A stretch of 64,000 nt of DNA, taken from assembly GCF_002970915.1 (NCBI RefSeq), contig NZ_CP027190.1:1178001-1242000 (forward strand), written 5' to 3'. A program made the position numbers and the translations under genes. The notes below the pieces were generated by a model. It did not search any database, was not told the origin of the DNA, and saw only the letters and a program-made list of their open reading frames with translations. Below are positions 22,740 to 31,611 of the stretch, piece after piece (the stretch's first letter is position 1; each line of letters begins with the position of its first letter). The stretch is from Lactobacillus sp. CBA3605. GTDB lineage: Bacteria; Bacillota; Bacilli; Lactobacillales; Lactobacillaceae.

Positions 22740-22768
22740 TTGCAAGCGCTTACTTAGTCTGGTAGTAT
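22740..22768 (+). promoter_or_regulatory. Promoter with overlapping cre site for the ncRNA
   Basis: TTGCAA (22740-22745), a 17-nt spacer and TAGTAT (22763-22768). The bases 22740-22754 (TTGCAAGCGCTTACT) fit the cre consensus WTGNAANCGNWNNCW at every position, so CcpA should cover the -35 box and repress. Confidence 0.75.
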
Positions 22769-22774
22769 ATTAAG

Positions 22775-23309
22775 TGAGGAAAGGTTATAACCCTCATTAG
22801 CAAGCTTCTCAATGAGTTTTGGTTGTCGCCATCACATTAGACAACTAGTCTTAACGTTTGGTCGTTACCGAAACCAGTCAGACGTCGTTAAGCGTTATCG
22901 GTCCAGTTAATTGTATTGGATGCCTGAACGTTGACCCTTCGATAAACGGTAACCGTTATTTGAACCAGCAGTAAGTAATATCAGTACAGTTAGTTCCAAA
23001 TTTCGACTCAGGTTGTAAAAATTTAAGCGGAGGTGCTGTCTGTCACGAAGACATTACCAAGTTTTAAGCGTAAGTTCGACTTTCGTTAGAATCCGTTTGA
23101 CGAGTCATGAATCAAGTAAAAATTACTTTTGATCGACTAAAGCAGATCGCTACAGGAAATACGGGTTAGTCCGTTAGAAGTTGGACACACGTAAAATTGA
23201 ATAGCATGAAGGTGTAACGTATTAAGAACACAGTACAATTAGTAATTGCTAATCAGGATTATTCCTCATAAGTAGGACTCAAGTTGAGAAGCCTTGAGCC
23301 CTATTTTTT
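22775..23309 (+). ncRNA. Candidate large structured non-coding RNA (~535 nt)
   Basis: The region has a clean promoter upstream, an intrinsic terminator at its end and no coding potential: stops are frequent in all forward frames. It is rich in local helices. Examples are GGTTATAACC (22783-22792), GTTGTC with GACAAC (22822/22840), CTTAACG with CGTTAAG (22850/22886), AACGG with CCGTT near 22945, an ATCAAGTAA arm (23111) pairing with TTACTTTTGAT inside an AGTC/GACT clamp, and TACG..GTCC with GGAC..CGTA (23160-23193). The 5' end GTGAGGAA (22774-22781) can pair with TTCCTCAT (23262-23269), closing the whole molecule. Size and layout recall ornate large RNAs such as ROOL or GOLLD, but I cannot assign a family. 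It is not tmRNA, RNase P, SRP or 6S RNA by visible motifs. Confidence 0.65.
23275..23309 (+). terminator. Terminator of the candidate ncRNA
   Basis: The stem GGACTCAAG (23275-23283) pairs with CTTGAGCCC (23293-23301) with one mismatch, then TATTTTTT. It separates the ncRNA from the aldo/keto reductase promoter. Confidence 0.8.
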
Positions 23310-23320
23310 GTCGTATGCAA

Positions 23321-23348
23321 TTGAAATCGTTTACACTACTAATATGAA
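23321..23348 (+). promoter_or_regulatory. Promoter with cre site for the aldo/keto reductase
   Basis: TTGAAA (23321-23326), a 16-nt spacer and TATGAA (23343-23348). Bases 23321-23335 (TTGAAATCGTTTACA) match the cre consensus at every defined position, so CcpA repression is expected. Confidence 0.7.
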
Positions 23349-23382
23349 CTCGTATACTTGAGTCAAAATAGGAGGTCTTCCT

Positions 23383-24303
23383 TTGAAAAAAATTAATTTA
23401 GGCCAAAGTGGCATGCAAGCATCCGCAGTTGCTCTTGGCATTATGCGCATGAACGCCCTCAACGTTGCCCAAGCAACCCAAGTCTTGGAATCGGCAGTCG
23501 ACTTAGGCATCAACTATATCGATGCAGCTGACATTTACGGTGGCGGTCAGTCATCAACCATTTTCGGTCAGGCTTTAAAACAGACGACCATCACCCGTGA
23601 CCAACTCTACATTCAAACTAAAGGCGGTATCGTTCCCGGTCAACGGTATGACTTCTCCAAACAACATCTCATTGATGCCGTTGACGGCGAGCTCAAGCGC
23701 TTGGGTATTGACTATCTAGATAGCTTTCTCCTCCATCGACCGGATCCACTGATGGAACCTACTGAAGTGGCGGCGGCTTTCAACGACTTACAACGCAATG
23801 GTAAAGTACGCCATTTTGGGGTATCTAACTTCAATCCGATGCAAGTCGAATTATTGCAAGCCGCTTTAAATCAACGCTTAATGATCAATCAGCTTCAATT
23901 CGGCGTCATGCACACTGGTCCAATCGACTTTGGCCTGCACACTAATATGCAAGACGACCGTAGCATTAACCATGATGGTGAAATCATTGAATATTCCCGT
24001 TTACACCATATGACAATTCAAGCCTGGTCACCTTATCAATATGGTAACTTTGCCGGGATTTTCTTGGACAATCCTAAATTTCCAAAGCTAAACGCAGTAA
24101 TGCAGACCCTCGCCGATACTAAGCAAGTCACTAAGAGTGCCATTGCAACTGCTTGGATTTTGCGCCATCCAGCACAAATCCAAGTGATTTTAGGGACAAT
24201 GAATCCAAAACATCTGGCAGAAAATGCTGCCGGAACAGCAATCGACCTGACCCGTCAAGAATGGTACGATATCTACTTTGCAGCCGGCAATGACCTACCA
24301 TAA
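23383..24303 (+). CDS. Aldo/keto reductase (YdhF-like)
   Basis: A 306-residue NADPH-dependent oxidoreductase with the (beta/alpha)8 AKR fold. Catalytic tetrad motifs are IDAADIYGGG (Asp and Tyr), IQTKGG (Lys) and LLHRPDPLM (His); the cofactor end carries VILGTMNPKHL. It resembles E. coli YdhF. The substrate is unknown; sugar-derived carbonyls are plausible given the cre-overlapped promoter. The start is TTG at 23383, with AGGAGG 7 nt upstream. A CAAGAAT-type hairpin follows. Confidence 0.87.
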   Translation: MKKINLGQSGMQASAVALGIMRMNALNVAQATQVLESAVDLGINYIDAADIYGGGQSSTIFGQALKQTTITRDQLYIQTKGGIVPGQRYDFSKQHLIDAVDGELKRLGIDYLDSFLLHRPDPLMEPTEVAAAFNDLQRNGKVRHFGVSNFNPMQVELLQAALNQRLMINQLQFGVMHTGPIDFGLHTNMQDDRSINHDGEIIEYSRLHHMTIQAWSPYQYGNFAGIFLDNPKFPKLNAVMQTLADTKQVTKSAIATAWILRHPAQIQVILGTMNPKHLAENAAGTAIDLTRQEWYDIYFAAGNDLP

Positions 24304-24595: not shown

Positions 24596-25015
24596 ATGTC
24601 AAAATTCAACATTACACTCATCAACGCGGACCGCGCTAAGGCAATGCTGACGGAATATAAAGAACAACGTAACCAGTCAATTCCGCGGTTAGCCCATCCG
24701 GGTCGTTACATTTTATCAGATTACAAATTAACGCGGCGGCGGGCGGCTTTCAAAATCGTTAAGCATACCTTTTTAACCCCGCACTATAAATCTTACGTTG
24801 CAATGGACTCTGATAACGGTCATACGTTATGGTTTCACAATTTCGGTTCATTAACCGAAGCCTTGTTTTGGTTAGAAACGGGCCTTAAAACTGGTGATAC
24901 TGATTCACACTCTAACTATAAAGAATGGACCACTAAACATACTGACGAAATCGATACCTTTAAAGAAGATTTGCGTCAACATAAAAAGGCTCATCCCAAA
25001 AAGAAAACCAAATAA
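24596..25015 (+). CDS. Hypothetical protein, basic, soluble
   Basis: A 139-residue protein I do not recognise. It is rich in Lys/Arg/His, with a basic tail HKKAHPKKKTK. A middle segment, KSYVAMDSDNGHTLWFHNF, has alternating hydrophobic residues as in beta strands, followed by an amphipathic stretch SLTEALFWLETGL. No signal peptide or membrane helix is present. The ATG at 24596 has GGGAG upstream. It is a single gene closed by a very strong hairpin. A nucleic-acid-binding role would fit the charge but is only a guess. Confidence 0.6.
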   Translation: MSKFNITLINADRAKAMLTEYKEQRNQSIPRLAHPGRYILSDYKLTRRRAAFKIVKHTFLTPHYKSYVAMDSDNGHTLWFHNFGSLTEALFWLETGLKTGDTDSHSNYKEWTTKHTDEIDTFKEDLRQHKKAHPKKKTK

Positions 25016-31381: not shown

Positions 31382-31532
31382 AACGTTCTCCTTCTGCCTA
31401 TTGGAGAAAGCAAACGGGTCACCACGGCAAAAAGAGCTGTGATGACCCATCGACTCAATTCGCTTATAGTCCAGCATTTACGGTGCTGGGTAGAAACTCG
31501 CCATCCTTATCATGGCATTATATAGGCAATTC
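31382..31532 (-). promoter_or_regulatory. Purine riboswitch, guanine-type, with expression platform
   Basis: On the minus strand the aptamer (about 31532-31462) has P2 GCCAT/ATGGC, J2/3 GAGTTTCTACC, P3 CAGCA/TGCTG with loop CCGTAAA, and J3/1 GACTAT. The specificity base (position 74 in xpt numbering) is C, which marks guanine/hypoxanthine recognition; adenine aptamers have T. Downstream, GGGTCATCAC pairs with GTGGTGACCC, then TTCTCC can pair with GGAGAA covering the ribosome site, so control may be by termination or RBS masking. Confidence 0.88.
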
Positions 31533-31611
31533 GTTTATTTTATAAATTTGTTTGTCAGTAACCTTAGCAGACTTCGATTTCAAATGCAACCGCCGCAAGT
31601 CTGACTAAGCA

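Follow-up and report, generated by a model that had tools for sequence, protein, structure and literature searches.

A large non-coding RNA gene of Lactiplantibacillus with a cre-type promoter and doubly tied ends, and its candidate relatives in the Lactobacillales

Two small RNAs of Enterococcus, Ern0160 of E. faecium and Ref19C of E. faecalis, are reported at the queA/Ca-ATPase position of their chromosomes (PMC12870237). Ref19C is the same RNA as EF0869_EF0871, which is 474 nt in length, is listed among stationary-phase sRNAs with array signals of 2655 versus 47287, was specifically seen by Northern analysis after 24 h of starvation, and was high in urine and serum (PMC3166299). Ern0160 was described as sRNA_0160, an RNA of 370 nt that had the highest count of the nine sRNAs in Table 2 of that study and accumulated at later growth stages; both it and 6S RNA fell under daptomycin in E. 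faecium (PMC5593968). Overexpression of Ern0160 is reported to lower two LysM-protein mRNAs, an effect that disappears when a 13-nt pairing region is missing (PMC12870237). In its main text, that paper makes no mention of CcpA, of any word beginning with Lactobacill-, or of a terminator, and CcpA is likewise unmentioned in PMC3166299 and PMC8631354.

Several other RNAs invite comparison. ROOL and GOLLD, which are RNAs of phages and prophages, have conserved kissing loops that proved to be intermolecular (PMC12286853). In approximately a third of lactic acid bacterial (LAB) species the 6S RNA gene is reported to have a cre site overlapping its -35 box, and CcpA repression of 6S RNA is argued from site position and, in L. 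lactis, from a ccpA deletion (PMC8414754). The L. plantarum supermotifs (LPSM; Wels 2009) are described as 800-1000 nt in length, present in many copies and not found in other Lactobacillus species, and a 520-nt lncRNA of the L. salivarius megaplasmid is reported as species-specific (PMC5643018).

The RNA described here is encoded within a window of 64,000 nucleotides (the whole stretch of DNA analysed) from Lactobacillus sp. CBA3605. It resembles ROOL, GOLLD and OLE in size class, complex fold and loop-loop pairings, but differs in being chromosomal, in its putative cre-controlled promoter, in its ends, and in having no Rfam match. The sequence-only reading of this locus had offered two options, a chromosomal member of a known ornate class or a new class. 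When all families of Rfam 15, with ROOL, GOLLD, OLE, HEARO and 6S among them, were searched against the window RNA, none reached its gathering score, so the first option was dropped and the second fits; the six matches in the region at E<=10 were chance-like (snoRNAs, a CRISPR repeat, SL2, a piece of RMST, and RAGATH-25). The RNAs at 39 further loci (10 firm, 29 diverged or candidate) also gave no family match, and the sole Rfam match around these loci was a tRNA near L218. Elsewhere in the window, an ordinary purine riboswitch (RF00167, 73.1 bits) is located at 31447-31545 on the minus strand. The LPSM are likewise large, intergenic, structured RNAs of L. plantarum, but the window RNA occurs once per genome and in several genera, a distinction drawn from the published description of LPSM. 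The L. salivarius lncRNA is similar in length and is also a long RNA of a lactobacillus, but it is megaplasmid-borne, whereas the window RNA had no match in the plasmid collection.

The RNA gene and its promoter

The gene and its signals are located as follows.
22774..23309, plus strand: large non-coding RNA of approximately 535 nt, from genus-wide conservation, structure, covariation and the lack of a conserved ORF
22740..22754, plus strand: cre box (putative CcpA site) TTGCAAGCGCTTACT over the -35 hexamer TTGCAA (22740-22745), by consensus match
22760..22768, plus strand: extended -10 element, TG (22760-22761) and hexamer TAGTAT (22763-22768), from the sequence
23270..23309, plus strand: intrinsic terminator, a hairpin (23270-23306) and T run to 23309, from the fold; conserved, with one double-changed pair (helix 23 of the consensus structure)

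Positions 22774-23309 are a stand-alone large non-coding RNA gene surrounded by ribosomal RNA and metabolic genes. It is considered stand-alone because its flanking genes vary from genus to genus and differ at two loci within the genus. The promoter consists of TTGCAA and TAGTAT separated by 17 nt, with the RNA start expected at approximately 22774. This promoter, the cre box over its -35 hexamer and the terminator were all found where the sequence-only reading had placed them. A scan for consensus promoters and terminators listed neither the promoter of the window RNA (its hexamers match 4+4 of 12 positions; the cut was 9) nor its terminator, and the two are therefore called from their conservation and not from how well they match a consensus. 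In 22 of 22 aligned members the TG of the extended -10 element does not vary, nor do the T, the A and the last T of its hexamer. The cre box TTGYAANCGNTNNC occurs once in the 64-kb window, counting both strands, and it is located 15-24 nt upstream in 36 of the 37 places that were matched by the cre-free pattern GTGAGGAAAG..CTTCTC, which argues that its presence at the promoter is more than chance. A second cre-like box, TTGAAATCGTTTACA, is found at 23321-23335 over the -35 hexamer of a promoter-like TTTACA-17-TATACT (23330-23358) that precedes an aldo/keto reductase gene, and from this box the reductase gene may be under the same control as the window RNA.

No ORF above 38 codons is present on the plus strand of the window RNA, and no start column with at least 20 codons was common to at least 12 of 19 relatives. 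A protein-coding gene was rejected because the longest ORFs are not common to relatives, and the earlier claim of no open frame held.

Paired ends and conserved structure

The window RNA was predicted to fold at -139 kcal/mol, with a z-score of -3.24 against dinucleotide shuffles (1 of 100 shuffles was as good). The elements discussed below are the following.
22774..22781, plus strand: 5' strand of helix P1, GUGAGGAA, pairing with 23262-23269
23262..23269, plus strand: 3' strand of P1, UUCCUCAU, pairing with 22774-22781
22792..22803, plus strand: 5' strand of helix P2, CCU.AUUAGCAA, from cognate versus swapped arms
23246..23257, plus strand: 3' strand of P2, UUGCUAAU.AGG, from cognate versus swapped arms
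22804..22812, plus strand: 5' pseudoknot strand, GCUUCUCAA, complementary to the terminator loop
23284..23292, plus strand: terminator-loop pseudoknot strand, UUGAGAAGC, complementary to the 5' strand
23193..23219, plus strand: conserved core, AAAAUUGAAUA..UGAAGGUGUAACG, from comparison of representatives and model R3

In DNA letters, P1 joins GTGAGGAA at 22774-22781 to TTCCTCAT at 23262-23269. This end-joining helix had been proposed from the window alone; it is invariant in all 19 aligned genus sequences, and in diverged relatives its arms change in step (GUGAGGAA/UUCCUCAU, GCGGAAAGG/CCUUUCCG and GUAGAAAGG/CCUUUCUAC). Directly inside P1 is P2, a second helix whose sequence varies by lineage. 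Cognate P2 arms paired with a mean of -15.3 kcal/mol versus -8.4 kcal/mol for swapped arms, and none of 20000 permutations reached the cognate mean in a set of 12 representatives, which were picked from 33 RNAs (four Lactiplantibacillus, three Pediococcus, two Furfurilactobacillus, two Secundilactobacillus and one Paucilactobacillus) and are not independent of one another. In the same set, the pseudoknot between the 5' element and the terminator loop was equalled in 14 of 20000 permutations. With 22 more widely drawn representatives the corresponding counts were 0 for P1, 0 for P2 and 2 for the pseudoknot, and in the P1 test the Lp, Furf, g51, g43 and f3g59 arms paired better with 10-13 of 21 foreign arms than with their own.

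All 22 of the aligned members have the same CUUCUC in the 5' pseudoknot strand, and in some diverged lineages the two strands of the pseudoknot change together. The pair is GCUUCUCAA/UUGAGAAGC in the window RNA, CUUCUCAAAG/CUUUGAGAAG in the Pediococcus damnosus group, GCCUUCUC/GAGAAGGC in Furfurilactobacillus, CUUCUCGCAA/UUGCGAGAAG in g11, CUCCUCGGU/ACUGAGGAG in g51, and UCUCGA/UCGAGA in f3. In other lineages (g5x, f3g59, g36 and g43) the pseudoknot was not found, with mismatched loops and own-loop pairing worse than that with 12-20 of 21 foreign loops; it is weak in g13, and lineages that share the common GAGAAG are indistinguishable in the swap test. In the window RNA the 5' CUUCUC-type element is complementary to the terminator loop, and the two ends are thus doubly tied. 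The covarying P2, the CUUCUC/GAGAAG pairing and the second cre-like box at the promoter of the next gene were all absent from the sequence-only reading.

Using blastn, the window RNA was found in 21 of 21 genus genomes, each with a single match (as also with the 5'-end sequence model R1 at E<=5e-4); outside the genus, only one of 39 genomes (G024) gave a match, which was alike at the two ends only. When 20 genus sequences were aligned together with one from Pediococcus, the near-invariant parts were the 5' GTGAGGAAAG, CTTCTCAA, TTCCTCAT and the terminator loop. In 16 of 22 representatives the core, seen as AAUUGAAU..GAAGGUGU, was found at a distance of 97-130 nt from the 3' end, one of the 16 having only its second half.

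Covariation within the genus was examined in alignment A4, which holds 19 of the 21 genus RNAs (L018 was omitted because of its tandem copies, and L011 was not included). The consensus structure has 174 pairs, of which 15 pairs, in 60 cells, changed on both sides, versus shuffled means of 8.9 pairs and 19.8 cells and slid versions with 2-6 pairs and 3-7 cells; this structure was derived from the alignment on which it was tested, and related sequences can exceed shuffles. The proportion of cells paired was 96.7% versus 95.5% when shuffled, and further pair types showed no excess in the genus alignment (70 versus 73.1 shuffled). In a hold-out comparison, the structure obtained from one half of the set paired 95-96% of cells in the other half and contained 13-16 double-changed pairs, versus 1-7 when slid. 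The single-sequence fold of the window RNA, placed on its relatives, paired 80.8% of cells with 12 double-changed pairs versus 6-10 when slid. The covariation that the earlier reading had asked homologues to show is therefore present, with 15 of 174 pairs double-changed within the genus and with P1, P2 and the pseudoknot changing between lineages. The omitted RNA, L018:678-1815, carries its 5' half (query 76-216) in four tandem copies, the last of them partial, giving an RNA of approximately 1.1 kb; it is a natural domain expansion.

Relatives in the Lactobacillaceae and in Enterococcus

The pattern GTGAGGAAAG plus CTTCTC matched at 37 places, which belong to 36 of 397 family genomes and to 6 of 40 genera; the one place without a cre box upstream, L084 in genome G216, was set aside as a chance match. 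When genome_contigs was scanned for a cre box together with GTGAGGAAAG, 36 stretches were obtained, of which 27 were judged to be members: Lactiplantibacillus (including L. plantarum EGD-AQ4), one MAG of an uncultured Lactobacillus sp., six species of Pediococcus, Furfurilactobacillus, Paucilactobacillus wasatchensis, and Secundilactobacillus malefermentans with two copies. All 27 have CTTCTC 30-40 nt further on and GAG[AG]AG in the terminator, neither of which was in the query. The other nine were judged to be chance matches as they had no CTTCTC within 60 nt, and L099, which passed a loose 3' test, was dropped for the same lack.

At E<=5e-4, R1 matched 121 of the 397 family genomes and 19 of the 40 genera. 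Of the 134 matches in the family, 40 loci (39 genomes, five genera) scored at least 49.6 bits and the remaining 94 were weaker, the next score being 41.5. Because those five genera supplied the training sequences of R1, their high scores are in part built in, and R1 also picks up the cre promoters of ordinary genes. A further 69 places were tested, comprising 57 of the 94 weaker matches (mainly the higher-scoring), three strong ones (L182-L184) and nine outside family f1, and five more of the weaker matches were inspected by eye only. Of these 69 places, 64 run without a long ORF to an intrinsic terminator, the exception being L224 with 123 codons; L185 and L215 are truncated at the end of a contig, and L227, L232 and L235, where ORFs of 232-506 codons begin, were excluded from the class. 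In 39 of the places tested no more than 3 of 300 shuffles equalled the end pairing, and in 49 no more than 15 of 300 did; the g36 group and most short types among them had no clear end pairing. RNA lengths across the class range from 347 to 1104 nt, with 500-1100 nt in lactobacilli; in L114, which represents L. plantarum, GTG and T run delimit 614 nt.

Five Pediococcus (g5) genomes carry a second paralogue with GAGGAAGGG..TTCTTCTCA (L185, L187, L192, L193 and L194), the main copy being elsewhere in the genome. Short non-coding stretches of approximately 250-340 nt, with the same cre-type promoter and a GTGxGGAAG-like start, were seen at L188, L198, L199, L210, L212, L213, L216, L218, L224, L228, L234, L240 and L241, and four of these (L212, L216, L218 and L224) have a common 3' end like AGCAAAGTGGC.AGATTCTTTCCG. 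The short stretches are perhaps a sister class. Near the window RNA, positions 24596-25015 encode a 139-aa protein with no Pfam match, homologues of which (57-64% identity) are located near the RNA in Pediococcus; it was the sole one of three window neighbours tested to be near the RNA in both genera.

The plasmid collection gave no blastn match for the window RNA, L144 or L104, the phage collection gave none for the window RNA, and viral_contigs gave no match by pattern. A phage or plasmid RNA was therefore rejected for the window RNA, which in these searches does not share the phage or prophage location of ROOL and GOLLD. L144 did match two unverified records named 'Listeria phage' (OR848199.1 and OR846762.1; L251/L252), but these carry tgt, queA-like and P-type-ATPase-like genes, as named from their translations, and are thus probably mislabelled bacterial chromosomal contigs.

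Matches to R1 were also found in family f3, which we infer to be Enterococcaceae, with E 1.7e-5 to 1.4e-4 per genome, where they start non-coding RNAs with joined ends. In seven of eight such loci no more than 3 of 300 shuffles equalled the end pairing, and in L142 6 of 300 did. Within 1.5-kb flanks, queA and/or a Ca P-type ATPase gene is present at seven of the eight loci (not L138), and on a wastewater contig with a 76% match the RNA lies between the ATPase gene and queA, in that order, and is encoded on the opposite strand. These relatives have the cre-type promoter and the end closure, and in part the complement between 5' element and terminator loop. The core model R3 matched five of 11 loci from families f3 and f5 (L134/L156 being f5) at E 0.002-0.02, two of them near-duplicates, and missed the locus when run genome-wide in G552 and G683 at E<=1, which weighs against the link to Enterococcus drawn below.

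Since the position of the f3 loci beside queA and/or the Ca-ATPase gene matches that published for Ern0160 and Ref19C, a link to the Enterococcus RNAs was drawn, and on architecture and position it is probable that Ern0160 and Ref19C belong to the same class. They too are stand-alone and non-coding, at 370 and 474 nt, and for both, expression late in growth or in starvation has been reported, the pattern expected of a CcpA-repressed gene. The differences are that blastn cannot bridge the divergence, so that the comparison was made by way of relatives at the locus, and that the long types of Lactobacillaceae are mostly longer.

Interpretation and alternative readings

The window RNA has a gene of its own, with a cre-type promoter and a terminator; P1 and P2 join its ends, and it contains a conserved core. 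It shares with its relatives the cre box over the -35 hexamer, the covarying P1 and P2 and, except in some diverged lineages, the 5' element complementary to the terminator loop. The comparative evidence supports the earlier proposal of a large RNA closed by end pairing and putatively under catabolite control. We consider it reasonably likely that these RNAs form an unrecognised, Lactobacillales-wide class of CcpA-repressed, end-locked and probably trans-acting RNAs, of which the window RNA is the Lactiplantibacillus member. Expression in lactobacilli, CcpA binding and the function of the RNA we infer. In the presence of glucose, CcpA on the cre box over the -35 hexamer would block transcription, and on exhaustion of the preferred sugar the RNA would be made; induction on sugar exhaustion is proposed because a cre site in this position is expected to repress in lactic acid bacteria. 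The locked ends would keep exonucleases off, allowing the RNA to accumulate. By analogy to Ern0160, for which mRNA pairing was reported in one overexpression paper, the lactobacillar RNA would then most likely act in trans, through exposed loops that pair with mRNAs, although a structural role would also be compatible with the large conserved core.

It is possible, though doubtful, that the following joint reading applies: an ancient, order-wide class would be the second CcpA-governed global RNA of LAB beside 6S, its terminator loop would dock on the 5' end so that only the complete, correctly terminated RNA is locked, stable and active, and its core would be an RNA or RNP machine rather than a simple antisense.

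A structural, RNA-only machine, perhaps a homo-oligomer in which CUUCUC and GAGAAG pair between molecules as the kissing loops of GOLLD and ROOL do, with mRNA pairing incidental, is an unlikely alternative. The length in lactobacilli, the strongly constrained core, the many covarying helices and the loop pairing conserved over genera would suit it, as would the intermolecular loops reported for GOLLD and ROOL (PMC12286853). However, no Rfam family was matched, the plasmid, phage and viral_contigs searches were empty, in contrast to the phage and prophage origin of ROOL and GOLLD, and lengths of 347 to 1104 nt suit a fixed assembly poorly.

It seems improbable that the RNA, CcpA-repressed as proposed, acts like 6S RNA on RNA polymerase or the ribosome and not on mRNAs. 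The promoter logic is that of LAB 6S RNA, with cre over the -35 hexamer and CcpA repression expected, and sRNA_0160 fell together with 6S RNA under daptomycin (PMC5593968). The genome, however, has a 6S candidate at a separate locus (G000:C1:601571-601759; 38.2 bits, below the family cut-off, and the genome's one RF00013 match, to a model of length 187), and the consensus structure of the window RNA folds differently, without a long rod and central bubble. Identity with 6S RNA itself, which had also been denied from visible motifs, was rejected given this candidate and the lack of an Rfam match on the window RNA.

It is very improbable that the RNA serves the aldo/keto reductase gene as a long, conditionally terminated 5' leader. 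That gene follows the RNA on the same strand at 23383 and is within the examined flank of 19 of 21 genus loci, but it has its own promoter-like element and cre-like box, and it is outside the flanks of L020, L021 and the 11 loci of other genera tested; on this synteny the leader was largely refuted. The earlier reading had looked to homologues between a serine hydrolase gene and the reductase gene in other Lactiplantibacillus genomes; the serine hydrolase was found within the examined flank of eight of 21 genus loci (neither gene at L020 and L021), and the class extends beyond Lactiplantibacillus. Virtually no weight is given to a decayed gene or chance foldable intergenic DNA, in favour of which nothing was found and which is refuted for the structure by conservation, compensatory changes and ends invariant over genera.

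In the open-licence literature, where absence is not proof, we found no paper that links these RNAs or describes those of the Lactobacillaceae. Judged from the literature found and from Rfam, the Enterococcus RNAs were already known singly; neither the class as a whole nor the cre control, end-locked structure or lactobacillar members proposed for it appeared in these sources. Isolated sRNAs of Enterococcus and intergenic DNA of food and gut lactobacilli are thereby joined into one testable class, in which the Enterococcus sRNAs gain CcpA as a likely regulator, together with a structure and a broad phylogenetic range, and the function can be worked out in L. plantarum and P. pentosaceus, which are harmless species of the laboratory. 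A terminator loop docked on the RNA's own 5' end would be a directly testable route to a stable long bacterial RNA.
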